From contig NZ_JH932293.1 of the NCBI RefSeq assembly GCF_000301075.1, positions 50,878 through 106,395 on the forward strand: a stretch of 55,518 bases of DNA, in the 5' to 3' direction. Within the stretch, counting starts at the first letter, position 1. Every line of letters starts with the position of its first letter. The notes under the pieces are model-generated. The model searched no databases. It saw only the letters and a list, made by a program, of their open reading frames with translations, and had not been told where the DNA came from. Both the position numbers and the translations under genes were made by a program. The stretch is from Bergeyella zoohelcum ATCC 43767. Its GTDB lineage: Bacteria > Bacteroidota > Bacteroidia > Flavobacteriales > Weeksellaceae. Shown piece by piece: positions 5,298 to 25,074 of this stretch.

Positions 5298-6356
5298 CTA
5301 TTGTTTTTTAAGCACTTTTTTAGGTACATCTTTACACAAAGCGATGCAACGACCTTGCCGGTCTATCAAAAAAATGTTTTTGCCAGACAATACGCTCGTT
5401 ATCCCCCCATTAAAATGATTTACTCTATCATACTGAAAAGGAATCACCACTTTTCCTGTAGGGTCTATAAATCCGTACTTTTCCTTGTACAAAACCGCCG
5501 CTAGTCCATCAGAGAAAGTATAGGCATGCTCATATTTTACTGGGATTACCTCTCTCCCGTCCTTAGCTATAAAGCCATAAAGACCTTTATGTGAGGATAC
5601 AAGTGCCAAGCCTCCGGAAAAAGACTTTACAAAAGGATAATTCGGCGAAAGCACCACCTCGCCTTTTTTATTTATAAAACTGTATTTGCCATTAATTTGT
5701 ACCCTTGCCAAATCTTCGGAAAAATCCTCCGCATATTCGTATTGAATAGGAATAACCTCCTTGCCCTGTGCATCTATAAAACCGTATTTTTCATCTTTTT
5801 TCACCCTTGCCAAGCCTTCAGAAAACGGATACACCATGTCATAATCAGAAATGATGACTATTTCTCCTGCTTTATTGATAAAACCTTCTTTTCCGTCCTT
5901 TATCACCCTTGCCAATCCCTCGGAAAAATTGCCTAAAAAATCATACTGTATGGGCATACGAATTTGCCCCGTTGCGTCTATAAAGCCATAGTTTTCATTA
6001 AGCCTCACCTCTGCCAAACCTTCGGAAAAATCTCCTGCATCACTGTACTGCAAGGGAATTACTTCTTTGCCTGTTTTATCTACAAAGCCGTATTTTTCAT
6101 CTTTTTCCACCCTTGCCAATCCCTCAGAAAAACGACTAACCCTATCGTATTTCAAAGGAACTACCACTATACCATTCTTATCTATAAACCCCTGCTTTCC
6201 ATCTACCTGCACTCTTGCCAAACCTTCGGAAAACTCGTCTATTCCGTCGCTCTTAGGGGTACTGATAGCAGGAGTAATCTTCAATCCCGAAAGGATATTC
6301 TGTGCATGAAGTGTACATACACCTAAAAATAGAAATAATGTGATTGTTTTTTTCAT
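5298..6356 (-). CDS. Secreted WG-repeat protein
   Basis: A 352-residue protein with signal peptide MKKTITLFLFLGVCTLHAQ followed by about eight WG-type (KWG Leptospira) repeats of roughly 34 residues. Each repeat carries variants of YGFID.xGkeviPlqYd...FSEGLArV. Most repeats begin YGFI rather than the family's W-G. The first seven are regular, and the last (NIFLIDRQGRCIAL) is degenerate. The fold probably forms a beta-repeat domain exported to the periplasm or surface. No catalytic motif or T9SS sorting domain is visible. Its function is unknown. It lies 146 nt downstream of the SUMF1 lipoprotein gene on the same strand, with a palindrome and a hairpin between them, so it is probably a separate transcript. 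Confidence 0.85.
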   Translation of the reverse strand: MKKTITLFLFLGVCTLHAQNILSGLKITPAISTPKSDGIDEFSEGLARVQVDGKQGFIDKNGIVVVPLKYDRVSRFSEGLARVEKDEKYGFVDKTGKEVIPLQYSDAGDFSEGLAEVRLNENYGFIDATGQIRMPIQYDFLGNFSEGLARVIKDGKEGFINKAGEIVIISDYDMVYPFSEGLARVKKDEKYGFIDAQGKEVIPIQYEYAEDFSEDLARVQINGKYSFINKKGEVVLSPNYPFVKSFSGGLALVSSHKGLYGFIAKDGREVIPVKYEHAYTFSDGLAAVLYKEKYGFIDPTGKVVIPFQYDRVNHFNGGITSVLSGKNIFLIDRQGRCIALCKDVPKKVLKKQ

Positions 6357-6502: not shown

Positions 6503-9112
6503 CTACGGGAATACAACGCGGAACCCGAAATAATTGAGCTGATTACTCGGATAGTTGCTGCGCCGATGGGCAACGCGAGTAATGTTGGCGTCGTCGTTGA
6601 AACCACCACCACGGAGAACACGGAGGTTGCCAGTAGTAGGCCCAGTAGGATTAGACTGTGCATTACTGCTATAAGCACCGTACCAGTCCGAACACCACTC
6701 CCATACATTACCACTCATATCATAAAGCCCTAATTCATTCGGTTGTTTTTGCCCTACAGGATGGGTAGTACGGGTACCATTCACTGAAGAATTATCATCA
6801 TACCAAGCTACATCACCTACATTATTACTTCCTGCATAAAAGAAGCCTAAGCTATATTTCCCACCGCGTGCGGCATATTCCCATTCCGCTTCGGTAGGAA
6901 GCCTACCCCCTACCCACTGAGCATAAGCTCTAGCACCATACCAAGAAACATGTCCTACAGGGTGGTTTTCATAGCCCGGCGTGACTAAATACACTCCACC
7001 ATTTTTTTTGATACTTCCATAATATTCATCATACCAACTGTTCCCTCCCTCTGTTTGGTTGCCTTTGACATTAAGAAACTGGGCATACTGTGCATTGGTA
7101 ACCTCGTACTTGCTCATTCTAAAAGTACTTACCGTAACCTGATGCTGTGGGCGTTCATTACTATACCCTACCCCATTAGGGCTACCCATAAGAAAAGTAC
7201 CGCCCTCTACGAGTACGGTTTGGTGGGTAGTAGGTGGTAAAGTAGTTCCTTGTACTTTAAAAATTTGATAATTGGTATTTGCCAATTCAGAATTATTATT
7301 TTGCTTTAACGCTCTTACTTTCCAACGGTAATGGTTGACCCCTTGGTTAAGAATTTCGGTTGCCATATTTACTACTCGCTGGGTTTGTTGCTGAGTATAG
7401 GTTTTGGTTTGTAATACGGTATTATTTGCGTCCATTGCTTGTATAGTAAGCTCAAAAACAGTACTTCCAATATGGTTTCCTTGGTCAAAAGTCCATTTAA
7501 AATCTACCTCTCCTATCTGAAGAAACTCTTGATTATGAGTAGGTGTAACAAGGCTTACGGTAGGTACATCTGTACGGTTCAGATACCTTTTCTCAAACAT
7601 AGAAGTAGAGTTATAAGCATAAATAGCTCCTGCAATGTCTGTTCCTAATTCTGCTATTTTTACGGTGTTTGCTACAAAGTTTATTTTGTGGGTAAGCTGG
7701 TTTGCAATATCCTTAGTGAAATTTCTTGCCTTATCTGGAACGGAACTCACCCCCATATACTTTTTAAATATATCATAGAGGTTATTGATATAGGTATCTT
7801 TTGCACTGAAAGGTCTAGGTTTTGGTTTATTACTTGCAATTTGATCTAAACAAAACAGCAAAACTTGTTTTGAGGCTTCTCCAAACTCTTTTTTTATCAT
7901 ACTTTGGGTAAACTCTTGTACCTCGTCTTGGTCATTAACAAAAGCCAACCCCAAATTGGTTATAAAATCTGTGAACGGACTTTTTTTGGTACCGTATCTT
8001 AAATCATATTTAAAATCATCTTTAGAAGATTTAATTACATCACCTATTCCTAAATAGAGTGCTATCATTGGCTTTATAAAATCATTATATGCACCGTGTA
8101 CCGCCACCAACATCATTTTTAGGCGTTGCTCTTCCGTGTATTGGTTAAAAGGTTTATCTAATTTTCCAAGCCCATAAAACTCTATCGCCAGTTTATCATA
8201 GTCTTGTATATCAATATTAATAGTCTCTGTAGTGTTTTCAAACGGACTGCTAGTATCCCCAAAAGCAGAACCTTTGACCAAAGACCAATAGTCTGTACTA
8301 TTAGGTATGATGGTTTCCAAATGTGGAAGAGATACTTGATTCAATACATCTACCTCTTCTTTGGGAACACCATTGGCTTCTACTTTGGCTTTTTTAAAAT
8401 AAATATGAAGTACTCTTTTGTGTTCATTCGCAATGGAGAACTCGTATTTTCCATCGGCTCTTTTCAAATTATTAATACTTACCAAGTTAGTAGAAAGATT
8501 GGCACTATCCCAATGCTTTTGTATAACAGCCATTATTAGTGGTTTCATATTAATAGCGGAATAATCAGGCGTATAAAGCCCTTTTAATCCTGCTACTAAG
8601 GCTTGATATACTTGATTTCTATAAGTCGAAAATTCAGGTAAAGTCTTAATATACTTTACCGTATTGGTAAATACTGTTTTATCCGTGGTAATAAACAACG
8701 GATGAGTCATTACTAATGCTACTGCAGTTTTTTCGGCATCTATAAGGGTATTAGGGTCAGAGGCGGGATCATCTATACTACACATAACCATTTCCCCTTT
8801 CTTATTGATTACATTGGTAATAATAAGCCCCGTAGGAGAATATTGTATAGTGGCAGTGTACCCTACTGTTACAGATTTACCCGTATTTCCACTTTCATTA
8901 GAAGCAGTCATTGGATACTCTCCAAAAGCATTAGAAACTACTAGCTCATCTAATATACTTTTATCCACCTCTGCTGGTAAAAGTACATTTACTTTTTCTT
9001 GCTCTATCACCGTTTCCTCTTGTGGAGCGGATGTTTCTATGTCATCTTTCCGACATCCTACCACTGCGAGCATCGTCATCGCCAGTGGTAATAAAAGATT
9101 TTTTAATTTCAT
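6503..9112 (-). CDS. Lipoprotein with C-terminal SUMF1/formylglycine-enzyme-like domain
   Basis: An 869-residue protein. MKLKNLLLPLAMTMLAVVGC is a type II signal peptide with the lipidated Cys at 20. Residues about 30-530 have no family I recognise. About 535-630 is a fibronectin-III-like segment (PTVSLVTPTHNQEFLQIGEV...HYRWKVRAL). Residues about 633-869 are a SUMF1/FGE fold: VEGGTFLMG, YEVTNAQYAQFL, GRLPTEAEWEYAARGG, GNVWEWCSDWYG and a terminal FGFRVV. The Cys pair used by true formylglycine-generating enzymes in the RGG..R.A.R segment is absent (LRGGGFNDDANITRVAHRR), so sulfatase activation is unlikely. GldJ and GldK of the gliding/T9SS machinery are also SUMF1-fold lipoproteins, so a structural envelope role is plausible but unproven. 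Followed by a hairpin terminator. Confidence 0.85.
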   Translation of the reverse strand: MKLKNLLLPLAMTMLAVVGCRKDDIETSAPQEETVIEQEKVNVLLPAEVDKSILDELVVSNAFGEYPMTASNESGNTGKSVTVGYTATIQYSPTGLIITNVINKKGEMVMCSIDDPASDPNTLIDAEKTAVALVMTHPLFITTDKTVFTNTVKYIKTLPEFSTYRNQVYQALVAGLKGLYTPDYSAINMKPLIMAVIQKHWDSANLSTNLVSINNLKRADGKYEFSIANEHKRVLHIYFKKAKVEANGVPKEEVDVLNQVSLPHLETIIPNSTDYWSLVKGSAFGDTSSPFENTTETINIDIQDYDKLAIEFYGLGKLDKPFNQYTEEQRLKMMLVAVHGAYNDFIKPMIALYLGIGDVIKSSKDDFKYDLRYGTKKSPFTDFITNLGLAFVNDQDEVQEFTQSMIKKEFGEASKQVLLFCLDQIASNKPKPRPFSAKDTYINNLYDIFKKYMGVSSVPDKARNFTKDIANQLTHKINFVANTVKIAELGTDIAGAIYAYNSTSMFEKRYLNRTDVPTVSLVTPTHNQEFLQIGEVDFKWTFDQGNHIGSTVFELTIQAMDANNTVLQTKTYTQQQTQRVVNMATEILNQGVNHYRWKVRALKQNNNSELANTNYQIFKVQGTTLPPTTHQTVLVEGGTFLMGSPNGVGYSNERPQHQVTVSTFRMSKYEVTNAQYAQFLNVKGNQTEGGNSWYDEYYGSIKKNGGVYLVTPGYENHPVGHVSWYGARAYAQWVGGRLPTEAEWEYAARGGKYSLGFFYAGSNNVGDVAWYDDNSSVNGTRTTHPVGQKQPNELGLYDMSGNVWEWCSDWYGAYSSNAQSNPTGPTTGNLRVLRGGGFNDDANITRVAHRRSNYPSNQLNYFGFRVVFP

Positions 9113-9207
9113 TGTTGTAAATATTTAAATTTGTTAAAAAGTTAAAAAGCTAAAAGGTTAAAAGGCTATCTTGTGGTAATAGAACCACCATGCAGCGGCT
9201 CTACAGA

Positions 9208-9396
9208 ATGACCGTTTTGGTCTTTCGTACCACTTTGGAGGTATTATTTTGCACCTCGTAGGTCTTTCAGATGACCGTTTTGGTCTTTCGTACCACCTTG
9301 GAGGTATTATTTTTCATCTCGGAGGTCTTTCAGATGACCGTTTTGGTCTTTTGTACCACCTTGGAGGTGTTATTTTTCATCTCGGAGGTCATTATT
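9208..9396. repeat. Three tandem 63-bp repeats
   Basis: Copies start at 9208, 9271 and 9334 with an exact 63-bp period and a few substitutions. Each carries two small palindromes (GACC-gtttt-GGTC and the ACCACCTTGGAGGT type). The third copy overlaps the last codons and stop of the leftward gene ending at 9370. The same stop codon and tail codons recur in frame at 9307 and 9244. Positions 9113-9207 hold the start region of the SUMF1 gene's leader and no other gene. Confidence 0.85.
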
Positions 9397-9885
9397 TTCG
9401 TCTTGCTTAGCCTCTGAAGGAGTGTTTCCCTTTCTTGGGCGTCTAAAAAACTGCTTCTGTTCCTTGTATTTCTCCTCAAAACCTACCATTTTAGAGCTGG
9501 CACGAAACTGCGTAAAGGCATAATCTGCAAGGCTATCCTGATAGTTATCAAAATCGTGAAAGATTTTGGAATTATTACATCGGTGAGATAGATTATTGAG
9601 CCTACTGATGACCGTTTCTAAGAAATTTCTAGACTGAAAATCTTTCTCAAACTCTGCCCAATCTACATCTGGCGACTTTAGGTTAGGCTGAGACAGGGCA
9701 TAGTCTCTCGTTTTGTGGATAAAGAGTTTATTCTGCTCGTTTACTCTGCCATATCGGTTGCGGTCTTCGGGCGTGAGGTTAATATTAAGGCTTTCCAATG
9801 CCTGTTCTAATTTCGCTAAAGCCTCATTAATCGCTTCTTTCTGCTCATCACTTAGGTGATGATTGTTGAGATTGTTTAAAGACAT
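9370..9885 (-). CDS. Conserved hypothetical protein, charged, helical
   Basis: A 171-residue soluble protein starting at MSLNNLNNHHLSDEQKEAIN. The in-frame extension upstream crosses repeat-like intergenic DNA and is rejected. It is rich in Asn, Gln, Lys and Glu. Predicted helices include EAINEALAKLEQALESLNIN and an N-glycan-free charged tail (PRKGNTPSEAKQDENNDLRDEK). There is no signal peptide, no membrane segment and no catalytic motif that I recognise. I know of similar unnamed proteins in flavobacteria but no function. The C-terminal six codons are part of a 63-bp tandem repeat. It is divergent from the LytTR kinase operon, with LytTR-like half-sites in the shared upstream region, so it is a candidate target of that system. 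Confidence 0.75.
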   Translation of the reverse strand: MSLNNLNNHHLSDEQKEAINEALAKLEQALESLNINLTPEDRNRYGRVNEQNKLFIHKTRDYALSQPNLKSPDVDWAEFEKDFQSRNFLETVISRLNNLSHRCNNSKIFHDFDNYQDSLADYAFTQFRASSKMVGFEEKYKEQKQFFRRPRKGNTPSEAKQDENNDLRDEK

Positions 9886-10033
9886 AATTATTATGATTAA
9901 AAGGTTATACAATAAAATATTTGTTTCGTTGTAAAGCCGAGATACATCGTGGCTCCGCATTGGGAAACGCCACGCATAGCGGCTGTACAGCACAAATTTC
10001 CACCAAACATTTTTATCTCACAATAGCCTGAAC

Positions 10034-10105
10034 ATGAACGGTATAAAATAACACATGAACGGTATGAATTTATACATAAACGGTAAAAAATCGTGCATGA
10101 ACGGT
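10034..10105 (-). promoter_or_regulatory. Four LytTR-like half-sites, 21-bp pitch
   Basis: ATGAACGGT occurs at 10034-10042, 10055-10063 and 10097-10105, with one variant ATAAACGGT at 10076-10084. The spacing is exactly 21 bp (12-bp gaps). On the minus strand the site reads ACCGTTCAT, which fits the LytTR half-site consensus [TA][AC][CA]GTTN[AG][TG] at all nine positions. Paired direct repeats 12-13 bp apart are how LytTR domains bind. The sites face the leftward gene starting at 9885 and lie about 150-220 nt upstream of it. Confidence 0.7.
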
Positions 10106-10150
10106 AAGTGTGGAGACAAAAAAACAGCGTTTTATATGCTATAAGCAGGA

Positions 10151-10443
10151 GGCAATAGGCTGTAAGCTGTAAGCTTCAAACAACTTCAAACCTTCAAACC
10201 ATATCAAACAACTTCAATAGGCAAGAGGCAGGAAGCAATAGGCAGGAGGCAGGAAGCAGGAGGCAATAGGCTGTAAGCTGTAAGCTTCAAACAACTTCAA
10301 ACCTTCAAACCATATCAAACAACTTCAATAGGCAAGAGGCAGGAAGCAATAGGCAGGAGGCAGGAAGCAGGAGGCAATAGGCTGTAAGCTGTAAGCTTCA
10401 AACAACTTCAAACCTTCAAACCATATCAAACAACTTCAATAAA
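10151..10443. repeat. Tandem 111-bp repeat, about 2.6 copies
   Basis: The unit starting GGCAATAGGCTGTAAGCTGT at 10151 recurs at 10262 and 10373 with an exact 111-bp period and almost no differences. The third copy breaks off near 10443. Within each unit the short motif aggcaggaagca is itself repeated. It contains no gene. It lies between the two LytTR-like operator clusters in the 659-bp gap 9886-10544. Related sequence in the opposite orientation occurs near 25440-25480. Confidence 0.9.
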
Positions 10444-10477
10444 CAAAAAGTTTCTTCTAAATAATTGAATTTTATAC

Positions 10478-10507
10478 ATGAACGGTAGAAAATCGTGCAT
10501 GAACGGT
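10478..10507 (-). promoter_or_regulatory. Promoter-proximal pair of LytTR-like half-sites
   Basis: ATGAACGGT at 10478-10486 and 10499-10507 form a direct repeat with a 12-bp gap, the same geometry as the cluster at 10034-10105. The pair closely copies that cluster's last two sites, including the gaaaatcgtgc spacer. It ends 24 nt before the -7 box of the kinase gene, a position suited to autoregulation by the LytTR regulator encoded at 13528. Relative to the kinase promoter the half-sites are in reverse orientation. Confidence 0.7.
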
Positions 10508-10531
10508 AAGGTAAAATTGGTTTTATACTAT

Positions 10532-10539
10532 TAAATTTG
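10532..10539 (+). promoter_or_regulatory. Putative -7 box (TAAATTTG) of the kinase-regulator operon
   Basis: TAAATTTG matches TAnnTTTG and ends 5 nt before the ATG at 10545, which predicts an almost leaderless mRNA. A TTG at 10517-10519 is too close for a standard -33 element, consistent with an activator-dependent promoter. Confidence 0.5.
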
Positions 10540-10544
10540 CCCCT

Positions 10545-13500
10545 ATGAAAATTTTCGTTTCCGTACTCATGTTATCTTTCTTTTCCTTGTCGTGGGGACA
10601 AAAGCAAAAGCTGCCCGCATGGGAAAATAATATCTATTGGTACAACCAATACAATACGGGACGAACTTTTTTTAATGTATGGGCCGACATCTTTCCTCTA
10701 CCCAACGGCGAGGTATTCCTAAAACCGTACTACGGCGATGCCGCCAAAATAGGTGCCAATTACTACACCAATGTAAAAAAACACCTGACCGAAATAGGAG
10801 AATACACCAATACATTTTCGATTAAAAACCAAGTATTTATCATATTCAAAAACCAAATCTATCGCATAAATTCCATCGATTCATACAAAGAAAAACAATA
10901 CCAGCTCATCACCACACTTCCCCAATACCATTACGATAACACGCTTGTACAAAACCACCGTGCGTACATCGCAGGAAGAAATGACGAAACCCAAACTTCT
11001 GCCCTCTACTTATTCGATGGAGAGCAAATCCGAGAGCTTAAAAAATTCAAAGGTGCTTTTATGAAAATAGGCATCTATCACGGGGTGCAATATTGGTTTC
11101 TAAAAGACAGAAAAAACAAAAAAACTACTTTTTACACCCTAAAAGACAGCGAAGTAAAAGCCGTAAAACAAGTACCTTTCGTGATAAGTGAGCTACACTT
11201 CAACAGTCTGGAAGATTTTTATTTCGTAGGGGAAGAAACACCTTATAGAGAAGCTATCTTTCACTACAAAAACGGGAAAATATCTACTGCCTTTCCACTA
11301 CTACACGCCTATACCTCCTCTGCATTTCAATTGTTTTTTACACACAAAAACGGACAGCTCACGCAGTTTTATGACTTGAACAAAAATGAAAAACCTTTTG
11401 CACAAACCACCGCTGTAGAAAAAGTACACAAAAAAACCTATTCGCCAGAAACGGAAAGTATCTATTTCGGAACGATGAACGATTTGGCGAGAATGTTTCT
11501 CTTACTGAAAAAATATCCGAGACTTTTTAATGAGTCCAACTCTGATGCGATTTTCTCCATCGGGCAAACCGCCGACGGCAAAGTATGGACAGGCTCTTAC
11601 AACGGATACATCACCACCCTAGACGGCGAAAAACAAACGCAAAGCAAAGTACAGGAAGTATTGGCACTCCCTGGAGGAATTTCTGTAGGTAATAAACACA
11701 TCATCAACGACCAATACACGCTATCTTTACTTCTCTTCGAGAATGAAAACCGCTACAAAAAAATTGCTGAAAATGTAGCAGGATTTTACAACTTCGTCAG
11801 TAGTAAAAATATCTTTTACGCAGGAGTAAACAACTACAGAGGACTCATGTACAAGCCTGTAAAAGAAATAGAAAATACCCAAATCTCTTGGAAATTTGCA
11901 GGAAAAGAAAAGGGGATCCACCTCATCAATTGCCTCACCATAGCCGAAGACCGCTTTGGAAACATCTGGACAGGACACTCTTCCTCGGGTATCGCCGTGT
12001 ATCAGCCTGATAAAGACCAAGGAAAAACTTGGCGGATAGACAAAAATGAAATCCCTTTTGGCAGTGGTGCCATGCTTACTGACTCCTACCAAACCCTATG
12101 GATAGCTACCAACAAAGGACAACTCTATTACTGGAATGGAAAGCATAAAGAAGATTTTGATACCAAAAATTTCATTTCGCTACACCATCCGCTCTTGGAT
12201 TTAGACCATGAAAACATTTCTTTCATCCATCAGTGGAAAGATTATCTCATCTTAGGAAAACACAATAAAATTCTATTACTGGACTTAAAGGCATGGTACA
12301 GTGCTAAAGAAGTAAAAATCCGTTATCTCAATCCTGTAGAAGCTGCTTTTTCAGGAATGTTGGGACAAAACACCATCTTTACTGATTTTCGGGACGAAAC
12401 CCTTTGGTTTTCCACCACAGATATGCTCTACAACTGGGACATCAAACGATGGACAAAGTTACCTACCTACAAAGTAAAGCCTGTACTTAATATCAAAACC
12501 GAAAAGGTTGATTTTACTCTTCAATCGAAGGAAAAAACTCGCCTCGCCCCTGACCAAAATTCATTTGAACTGAATGTATTTTATCAGGCAAAAGACAATA
12601 TGCCAAGGTTTATTTCTATGATTTTAACACATGAAAGCGAAACCTCAACCACTCACCAAAAATTAGGAACAGACCGAAAATTTGATTTCAAAAATTTAGC
12701 TTCAGGAAATTATACCGCAAAAGTATTGGTTTGCCAGCAAGATGGCTCGTATGAAGAATTTTCGTATCCTATAGAAATCAGCAAACACTGGTGGGAATAT
12801 TGGACATTCTGGGCAACGCTATCACTCTTGATAATCTCTATCATTTACCTTTATTTCCGTAAACACCGAGAAGTAGAGCGGCAAAAAGCGACCATCACTC
12901 AGCTTAACCTCATTACACTGAGTAAGCAATTCCGCCCTCACTTTATGCTCAATGCACTTAACAGCCTGGGAAGCGAAATGATAGGTATGCCCCACGCCGA
13001 ACGAATCATCTCTCGTATAGGCGAAAGCATCAATATCATGTATTCCTTTATCAAGAAAAATAAAATCTATCTCCCCTTTGAGATGGAATGGAAACTTACG
13101 CTCAATACCATCGATATTCAAAAGGAAATCTTTATCAAAGAATTAGAGTTCACCCACCAAGGCTTAGAAATTATTCCCAAGAATTATAATATCCCCATCG
13201 GCTTGGTACAAATTATGGTGGAAAATGCCCTACTACACGGCATCAGACATAGAAAATCGCCTCCTTACTTGCTAAAGATTAGCATCAGCCAAGACGATAA
13301 ATTCTATTACATAGAGATAGAAGACAACGGCGTAGGGAAAGAAAATTCAGCAAAGTTCATCAATTCCAAGAAAAACGGAACGGGTATCCAAAAAACCTAC
13401 GAGACCATAGCCATTATCAACTCCAAAATCCCCAATGCCCTTGCCATAGAATTTGAAGAAATCAACCCTATGGACAAAGAAAACCCAGGAACACGCGTAC

Positions 13501-13547
13501 GAATAAAAATGAAAAAAAACATCCACTATGAAAACCATGATTTATAA
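10545..13547 (+). CDS. LytS-type sensor histidine kinase with periplasmic propeller sensor
   Basis: A 1000-residue membrane kinase. Signal peptide MKIFVSVLMLSFFSLSWGQ is followed by about 720 periplasmic residues with two-component-regulator-propeller character (for example AEDRFGNIWTGHSSSGIAVY, DSYQTLWIATNKGQLYYW) and a Y_Y_Y-like beta domain. One transmembrane helix lies near 750-770 (YWTFWATLSLLIISIIYLYF). The cytoplasmic part has the His_kinase (PF06580) box QFRPHFMLNALNSL with phospho-acceptor His799, the N box ENALLHGIRHR and glycine boxes DNGVGKE and GTGIQKTYE. All key residues are present. The stop overlaps the regulator gene by 20 nt, so the two are translationally coupled. The ligand is unknown. 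Confidence 0.9.
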   Translation: MKIFVSVLMLSFFSLSWGQKQKLPAWENNIYWYNQYNTGRTFFNVWADIFPLPNGEVFLKPYYGDAAKIGANYYTNVKKHLTEIGEYTNTFSIKNQVFIIFKNQIYRINSIDSYKEKQYQLITTLPQYHYDNTLVQNHRAYIAGRNDETQTSALYLFDGEQIRELKKFKGAFMKIGIYHGVQYWFLKDRKNKKTTFYTLKDSEVKAVKQVPFVISELHFNSLEDFYFVGEETPYREAIFHYKNGKISTAFPLLHAYTSSAFQLFFTHKNGQLTQFYDLNKNEKPFAQTTAVEKVHKKTYSPETESIYFGTMNDLARMFLLLKKYPRLFNESNSDAIFSIGQTADGKVWTGSYNGYITTLDGEKQTQSKVQEVLALPGGISVGNKHIINDQYTLSLLLFENENRYKKIAENVAGFYNFVSSKNIFYAGVNNYRGLMYKPVKEIENTQISWKFAGKEKGIHLINCLTIAEDRFGNIWTGHSSSGIAVYQPDKDQGKTWRIDKNEIPFGSGAMLTDSYQTLWIATNKGQLYYWNGKHKEDFDTKNFISLHHPLLDLDHENISFIHQWKDYLILGKHNKILLLDLKAWYSAKEVKIRYLNPVEAAFSGMLGQNTIFTDFRDETLWFSTTDMLYNWDIKRWTKLPTYKVKPVLNIKTEKVDFTLQSKEKTRLAPDQNSFELNVFYQAKDNMPRFISMILTHESETSTTHQKLGTDRKFDFKNLASGNYTAKVLVCQQDGSYEEFSYPIEISKHWWEYWTFWATLSLLIISIIYLYFRKHREVERQKATITQLNLITLSKQFRPHFMLNALNSLGSEMIGMPHAERIISRIGESINIMYSFIKKNKIYLPFEMEWKLTLNTIDIQKEIFIKELEFTHQGLEIIPKNYNIPIGLVQIMVENALLHGIRHRKSPPYLLKISISQDDKFYYIEIEDNGVGKENSAKFINSKKNGTGIQKTYETIAIINSKIPNALAIEFEEINPMDKENPGTRVRIKMKKNIHYENHDL

Positions 13548-14283
13548 TTACCTCGTAATAGAAGATGATACCAATGTGTGGAACAATATAGAGATGCGTA
13601 TGAAAGCCTTTCCAAACTGGCAGCCTTGTGGTTTTTCAGAAGAATTGGATAAAACTCTTATGCTCATCAAAAAACATTTGCCACAGCTTATTTTTATGGA
13701 TTGGAGTATTCAGGGAGGAAATGCTTTTGATATCCTAAATACCATAGAAAAAATACCCCATTACCAACCTTACATCATTTTTTTTACAGGTTTTCAATCA
13801 GACAGACCCGATATTCCGGAAGAAGTTTTGAACCGTTATCGATTTGTTCAAAAATACCTCGTAAAACCCATTCACGAAAAACTGACCAATTTCTTGGCAA
13901 AATATATACAAGAGGCCGAACAGATGACGCTCAACCGTCCCATGGCAGATTTTGCTTGGGTGGAAGATGATACCCATTGTAAAAAACGCATCATACCACA
14001 GGACTGCATGGCGATTATCAATGAGCCTACCAAACCTCGATGCAAGCGAATGATTTTTTGTAATAGTGAGCCTATCATTGTACGCAAAACTTGGGAAGAA
14101 TGCATCAGTTTCTTTGAGAACCATCAAATCGATTATTTCATTGCCCACCACAGAAAAAGCATCGTGAATATGAGACATATTAAAAGAGTGCAAAACGCCC
14201 ATATCTACCTTAACGACAGAGACTGCATAGAAGTATCAAGACAGCAATGGAAAGAGCTAGAGAAGTTATTCAGACCCGCTTAG
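13528..14283 (+). CDS. Response regulator with LytTR DNA-binding domain
   Basis: A 251-residue cytoplasmic regulator (243-251 depending on start; ATG at 13537, MIYNYLVIEDD, is an alternative). The receiver domain has the acidic pair EDD near residue 13, phospho-acceptor Asp58 in LIFMDWSIQGG, Thr in FFTG and Lys113 in YLVKP. The C-terminal LytTR domain spans about 150-250: the segment from CMAIINEPTKP through FFENHQIDYFIAHHRKSIVNMRHIKRVQ to IEVSRQQWKELEKLF. It overlaps the kinase gene and must be its partner. LytTR proteins bind paired direct 9-bp repeats; matching arrays lie at 10034-10105 and 10478-10507. Confidence 0.92.
   Translation: MKTMIYNYLVIEDDTNVWNNIEMRMKAFPNWQPCGFSEELDKTLMLIKKHLPQLIFMDWSIQGGNAFDILNTIEKIPHYQPYIIFFTGFQSDRPDIPEEVLNRYRFVQKYLVKPIHEKLTNFLAKYIQEAEQMTLNRPMADFAWVEDDTHCKKRIIPQDCMAIINEPTKPRCKRMIFCNSEPIIVRKTWEECISFFENHQIDYFIAHHRKSIVNMRHIKRVQNAHIYLNDRDCIEVSRQQWKELEKLFRPA

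Positions 14284-24506: not shown

Positions 24507-25074
<568 letters not shown>

Follow-up and report, generated by a model that had tools for sequence, protein, structure and literature searches.

Introduction

LytTR-type operators consist of two imperfect 9-bp direct repeats with a gap of 11 to 13 bp, placed approximately 10 bp upstream of the -35/-33 element, and their half-site consensus is [TA][AC][CA]GTTN[AG][TG]. In the agr P2-P3 region of Staphylococcus aureus, the LytTR regulator AgrA acts from direct repeats that separate its operon from the divergent promoter of its target (PMC4227749), an arrangement also proposed for the locus described here. The agr region differs in that each promoter comes with a separate set of repeats and that an RNA is the target, whereas our compact orthologous loci have one common array whose sites face the divergent promoter. 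HdrRM, BrsRM and their relatives, together with two Bacteroides examples, likewise have a 12-bp gap, with the -35/-33 element lying about 10 bp downstream of the repeats (PMC6193735). In the same source, the gaps of published LytTR promoters are mostly 12 bp with the repeats some 10 bp upstream of -35, two Bacteroides LytTR examples stand at 11 bp, and predictions are given for two operators in Bacteroides that belong to a different LytTR type (PMC6193735). Systems of the HdrRM/BrsRM type combine a membrane-protein partner with canonical self-regulation, whereas the present locus encodes a kinase-receiver pair and its canonical geometry is directed toward a divergent unit. Nor is it a LytTR regulatory system in the sense of a LytTR protein with a membrane inhibitor and no kinase, as the regulator's partner is a histidine kinase. 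ComE of Streptococcus pneumoniae provides the best PDB matches to a model of our regulator (17-18% identity, TM-score of approximately 0.4 over the whole chain) and differs from it in kinase, promoter type and targets. A literature search on LytTR proteins in Bacteroidetes with direct repeats, on Flavobacterium and on Bacteroides autoregulation, covering titles and the openings of abstracts, found no work on kinase-linked operators.

Results

We analysed a stretch of 55,518 nucleotides from Bergeyella zoohelcum ATCC 43767 (contig NZ_JH932293.1, positions 50,878 to 106,395), hereafter the window. It contains a kinase-regulator operon and a divergent unit:

10545-13547, plus strand: sensor kinase of 1000 aa (Reg_prop, His_kinase)
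13528-14283, plus strand: response regulator of 251 aa, receiver plus LytTR (Pfam and structural model)
9370-9885, minus strand: 171-aa ORF, first of the divergent unit, member of a dispersed family (ORF list and family search)
6503-9112, minus strand: 869-aa protein with an FGE-sulfatase domain, predicted by eye to be a lipoprotein; proposed specific target
5298-6356, minus strand: WG-repeat protein, also present beside a related lipoprotein in genome G142; membership of the unit uncertain

A preliminary description of this DNA had named the last gene of the operon a LytTR regulator, and Pfam agrees (1.8e-7; 31.7 bits against a cut-off of 22.6), with a match confined to positions 39-97, the second half, of the profile. 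The Response_reg match, at 26.4 bits, falls below its cut-off of 30.2. Assignment to the receiver-plus-LytTR class draws on these scores, on the strands of the model and on the structural matches to ComE. The AlphaFold model was built from 9 aligned sequences (pLDDT 87.5, pTM 0.56), and its five best PDB matches by E-value were all full-length ComE chains (4cbv; E 9.9e-11 to 4.1e-9). The 2.33-Mb genome encodes two LytTR proteins, of which this is one.

Between the operon and the divergent unit lie two groups of repeats:

10034-10042, 10055-10063, 10076-10084 and 10097-10105, minus strand: far array of four half-sites at a pitch of 21; ACCGTTCAT reads toward the divergent gene
10478-10486 and 10499-10507, minus strand: near pair, oriented as the far array (genome-wide pair search)
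10069-10108: duplication copy 1, holding far-array sites 3 and 4 (sequence comparison)
10471-10510: duplication copy 2, holding the near pair; 95% identical to copy 1
10143-10441: 111-bp x 2.7 tandem repeats in the stretch parting the two groups (repeat scan)

Scanning the window placed ATGAACGGT on the plus strand at 10034, 10055, 10097, 10478 and 10499 and ATAAACGGT on the same strand at 10076, reproducing the six 9-mers reported previously, with a pitch of exactly 21 bp and a gap of 12 bp inside both groups. The enriched feature is the pairing, for single 9-mers with at most one mismatch were seen 8 times in the window against 8.75 expected. A genome-wide search (2,332,784 bases) for 9-mer pairs with a 12-bp gap and at most 3 mismatches in 18, a check that the preliminary description had suggested, returned four matches, all at the window arrays (three overlapping in the far array plus the near pair), and 0 in the reversed control. 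The two groups are not independent arrays, because the 40-bp duplication joins them; the tandem repeats lie between its copies. Read as ACCGTTCAT, the half-site matches the LytTR consensus at every position, as does the ATAAACGGT copy, read ACCGTTTAT. At the level of sequence the earlier assignment to a LytTR-type operator with a 12-bp gap is thus upheld, and a putative LytTR operator is the best reading of the repeats.

Orthologous pairs were sought by a kinase query against 320 genomes of the family, with two candidates scored per genome. Matches, mostly distant, occurred in 247. Strong long matches came from the window's genome (G000), G118 (42%), G028 (34%) and G334 (32%), with a kinase-only remnant in G131; the rest were distant. 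A four-row regulator alignment scanned against genome contigs gave nine loci, eight of them usable after one from Methylophaga (L087; 27% over 117 residues) was dropped: three from Capnocytophaga (L079, L080, L082), one each from a Flavobacteriales MAG (L081), Flavobacterium lacus (L083) and a Chitinophagaceae MAG (L086), and L084 and L085, which are the G028 (Weeksellaceae bacterium TAE3-ERU29) and G334 (Flavobacteriaceae bacterium Ap0902) loci and were each counted once. The ortholog set comprises ten full-length kinase-LytTR pairs plus the G131 remnant.

Motif-like repeats at the 21-bp pitch precede the kinase in seven of the ten (G000, G118, G028, G334, L081, L083 and L086). The expectation that relatives retaining the pair would keep the spacing holds for these seven and fails for the three Capnocytophaga, before whose kinases no motif-like operator was found; AGTGAAAAGT-like pairs that appeared in the motif scan of L079 were not counted as operators. 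The G118 locus has four sites at pitches of 21, 19 and 21; the outermost of them is degenerate and was spotted only after the 40-nt rule given below. Two or three degenerate sites are present in G131. Among orthologs the motif drifts (CATGAACGGT, CATGAGCAGT, CACGAAACC, CATGAAACGG) and the pitch is constant, recurring as far as the Chitinophagaceae MAG; half-sites are conserved and spacers vary. Half-sites of the GGTTTCGT types match the LytTR consensus poorly.

Base-weighted matching over the ten upstream regions ranked pitch 21 best of 35, with five regions at P<=0.02, one of them the Capnocytophaga L080 repeat (P 0.015), which is AT-rich and unlike the motif. For G118, G334, L081 and L083, an unweighted null test was weak at this pitch (P 0.33-0.46), and base-weighted scoring gave P 0.015-0.085, none significant singly. 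In a wider test, 37 loci were fetched, 28 with a kinase and an adjoining regulator-sized gene were counted and 9 were dropped. Of the 35 pitches compared, 21 again had the smallest combined P value (2.2e-4, with P<=0.02 at 4 of the 28 loci), in a set whose regulators were not all checked for LytTR, which includes many close relatives and uncertain start codons, and in which only L119 is clear by eye. The result is no more than suggestive of a 21-bp pitch that is general beyond the ortholog group.

Several features of these loci were noted in passing. In L119 (2670-2740), a kinase-regulator operon outside the ortholog group from genus g21, which we take to be on the Chryseobacterium side, ACTTGGTGAA occurs twice at a 21-bp pitch approximately 70 nt before the start, with TATCTTTG at -12. 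The regulator residue after the invariant R209 is K in G000 and G118, Y in G028, G334 and L086, and D in L081 and L083, and by eye co-varies with half-site type. The G131 remnant (L078:6720-8283) has a kinase cut to 241 aa, lacking the sensor part, and retains the regulator and degenerate operator. In Capnocytophaga sp. oral taxon 338 (L079:4195-18000) the pair apparently lies, by eye, among phage-like genes.

Promoter-like elements are present on both sides of the window array, a candidate for an agr-like divergent switch:

10021-10023, minus strand: candidate -33 element (TTG) for divergent transcription, separated from the first half-site by 10 nt
9993-10000, minus strand: GAAATTTG (CAAATTTC on the plus strand), candidate -7 box for divergent transcription, at a distance of 20 nt from the TTG and 40 nt from the first site
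10532-10539, plus strand: TAAATTTG, candidate -7 box for the kinase and regulator genes; it lies 34 nt past the C that precedes the last site and stops 5 nt short of the ATG

The half-sites, read as ACCGTTCAT, point away from the kinase. According to PMC9723704, the -7 box recognised by flavobacterial sigma-A reads TAnnTTTG, and TAnnTTGY is a shorter flavobacterial motif. On the minus strand, six of eight loci have a box within one mismatch of TAnnTTTG placed before the first site at a distance of exactly 40 nt, a register with a chance probability of about 1e-7 after 88 offsets under independence; both the boxes and the degenerate outermost G118 site were, however, picked with the data in view, the loci are related and the null models are simple. 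The G131 box stands at 41 nt, and at the 40-nt place G334 has TACTTTGC, which misses the sigma-A box and by eye matches the shorter motif. Ten divergent-type promoters align as repeat-N12-repeat-N10-TTG-N20-[TG]AnnTTTG. TTG occurs exactly 10 nt from the repeat in seven of them, TTT in two and neither in G131, while the -7 box is within one mismatch in eight and exact in three. Two details count against the proposed divergent target: the window's own -7-like box carries one mismatch, and L086 possesses the divergent-side elements with no divergent gene in the 900 bp examined. As this register matches that of published LytTR promoters (PMC6193735), the repeats are canonical in orientation and spacing for the putative divergent promoter, which supports the divergent side as a target.

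Once the 40-nt rule was established, six genomes were searched with a pattern made of the sites alone. When up to 3 mismatches were allowed, the pattern matched 81 times, no more often than its reversed control (103), and only matches with 0-1 mismatch stand out. Loci were available for 30 of the 81 and were read: five home loci, three other one-mismatch matches, L149 (scored at a better neighbouring site, its own 2-mismatch site being uncounted) and 21 weaker matches, some overlapping repeats. Beyond its home locus, G028 has two one-mismatch pairs on other contigs, both with TTG at +10 and TAnnTTTG at N20 with 0 mismatches. One precedes a 1051-aa Fib_succ_major protein whose N-terminal part is homologous to 6503-9112 (41%, E 4.5e-144), the other two tandem BspA-LRR/Big_2 proteins (1009 and 674 aa); by eye, the proteins behind both operators are lipoprotein-like. 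The genome of L086 (G345) contains a further one-mismatch pair, with the TTG present and a poor -7 box (2 mismatches). None of the 21 weaker matches has a TTG, or a -7 box within one mismatch, at the expected places. The motif had been offered as ready-made for finding a regulon; no other pair occurs in this genome, and its G028 version yielded two more loci.

On the strength of the geometry and of the two G028 operators that carry both elements before predicted surface lipoproteins, we see the divergent unit 9885-6503 as the probable main target and self-regulation as a weaker second face. Within the unit, the lipoprotein 6503-9112 is more likely to be the specific target than the 171-aa ORF (9370-9885), the candidate named by the preliminary description. 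The 171-aa ORF is probably a passenger because its family is dispersed and its contexts are unlike: relatives occur in 129 of the 320 family genomes (up to 5 matches per genome), 127 of these lie outside the five genomes holding the pair or remnant, and the ten loci that were inspected have unlike contexts. A search with the first 631 residues of the lipoprotein matched three of the 320 genomes, G000, G028 and G142. In G142 (L172:2296-9380), a TPR-kinase/LytTR pair, different from that of the window, is followed by a Fib_succ_major relative of 6503-9112 and then by a WG-repeat protein, the same neighbour as in the window. Counting against the lipoprotein is its distance of 880 bp from the divergent promoter, with the 171-aa ORF and the 63-bp tandem repeats that follow it (9208-9885) in between; no TAnnTTTG occurs on the minus strand of 9113-10040 and, by this test, that region therefore offers no better promoter.

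A diversity-generating retroelement behind the FGE-type C-terminus of 6503-9112 was also considered and rejected: the last 398 bases gave one other genome match (40 bp, 83%) and no template-like copy.

Divergent cargo differs between orthologs. At the G028 home locus it is a T9SS-tail protein behind a 319-aa protein, with relatives of both in L083; L081 has an M23 peptidase with a T9SS tail and G131 a T9SS-tailed protein. G118 and G334 (L076:4720-6660, L085:2859-5528) have two proteins in common, one judged by eye to be a membrane protein (30%) and one a P-loop protein resembling Double-GTPase 1 (39%). PADLOC returned no defence match for these four proteins, and their one Pfam match, Double-GTPase 1, scored 24.1 bits, below the cut-off of 27.

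On the kinase side, TAnnTTTG stands 33-34 nt after the last site in G000, G028 and G334 and 42-44 nt after it in G118, L081, L083 and L086, thus in all seven loci, the two classes differing by approximately one helical turn. This regularity, and the retention of operators beside the kinase in most orthologs, would suit sites whose main role is to let the kinase-regulator operon control itself, with the divergent side incidental. The preliminary description thought self-regulation the simplest reading. We regard such a main role as unlikely, since the half-sites are inverted on this side relative to published LytTR promoters and no TTG is present at -33 in those loci, leaving the repeats without a -35/-33 element some 10 bp beyond them. 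Furthermore, only 2-13 nt separate the ends of the boxes from the called starts in six loci, so that transcripts would be leaderless or have very short leaders (in G334 the start must be later, because the box falls within the called ORF), and the two extra G028 operators have a divergent-type promoter only, with no adjoining kinase. The geometry thus reverses the order of targets first proposed, self before divergent.

Somewhat less probable still is a double role for the regulator, which would activate the divergent unit but, from the near pair, repress the kinase promoter: the last site ends approximately where a -33 element would be in G000, G028 and G334 but lies one turn farther away in the four other loci. 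Binding of another protein, or neutral tandem repetition in a region with several unrelated tandem repeats close by, is very improbable, given that half-sites are kept while spacers differ, that the pitch recurs up to the Chitinophagaceae MAG and that the promoter elements are in register at these operators and missing from the 21 weaker pattern matches.

Discussion

We consider it likely that the regulator-bound operator activates the divergent unit by its canonical face and, less certainly, its own operon by the other face, from an ancestrally compact array that was later split. The regulator, once activated, presumably by phosphorylation, would bind half-sites in pairs, at a spacing of two helical turns. 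At the far array, the canonical face would activate the divergent promoter, and the transcript would span the 171-aa ORF and, with read-through, the surface lipoprotein. The other face of the near pair would act on the kinase-regulator promoter, probably as feedback activation.

The window array seems to be split, with four sites toward the divergent promoter and the duplicated copy of the last two toward the kinase. Taking as a guide G118, where a compact four-site array still lies between two promoter-like elements, the simplest history, drawn from one genome, would be a single four-site array adjoining both promoters, followed by an insertion with the 40-bp duplication. The insertion would now carry the 111-bp repeats, and the kinase promoter would have been displaced together with the copy of sites 3 and 4.

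The kind of system is known, and the new predictions concern its targets, its orientation and a register exact to the base. A template of repeat-N12-repeat-N10-TTG-N20-TAnnTTTG could make the regulons of orphan regulators testable, as in G028, and links the kinase-LytTR pair to surface lipoproteins. More tentatively, the Bacteroidota kinase-LytTR pair might be a two-faced promoter cassette, whose canonical face drives the opposite cargo and whose other face feeds the sensor, with a half-site that drifts with the regulator and a divergent register that is fixed to the base. Cargo under such a reading comprises surface lipoproteins, T9SS-sorted proteins and a membrane protein with a GTPase-like partner.

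Elsewhere in the window, a perfect run of 27 GT dinucleotides occupies 24939-24992, and three near-identical tandem ORFs lie approximately 610 bp apart at 128-1979, presumably encoding Uma2-like nucleases, as judged by eye.
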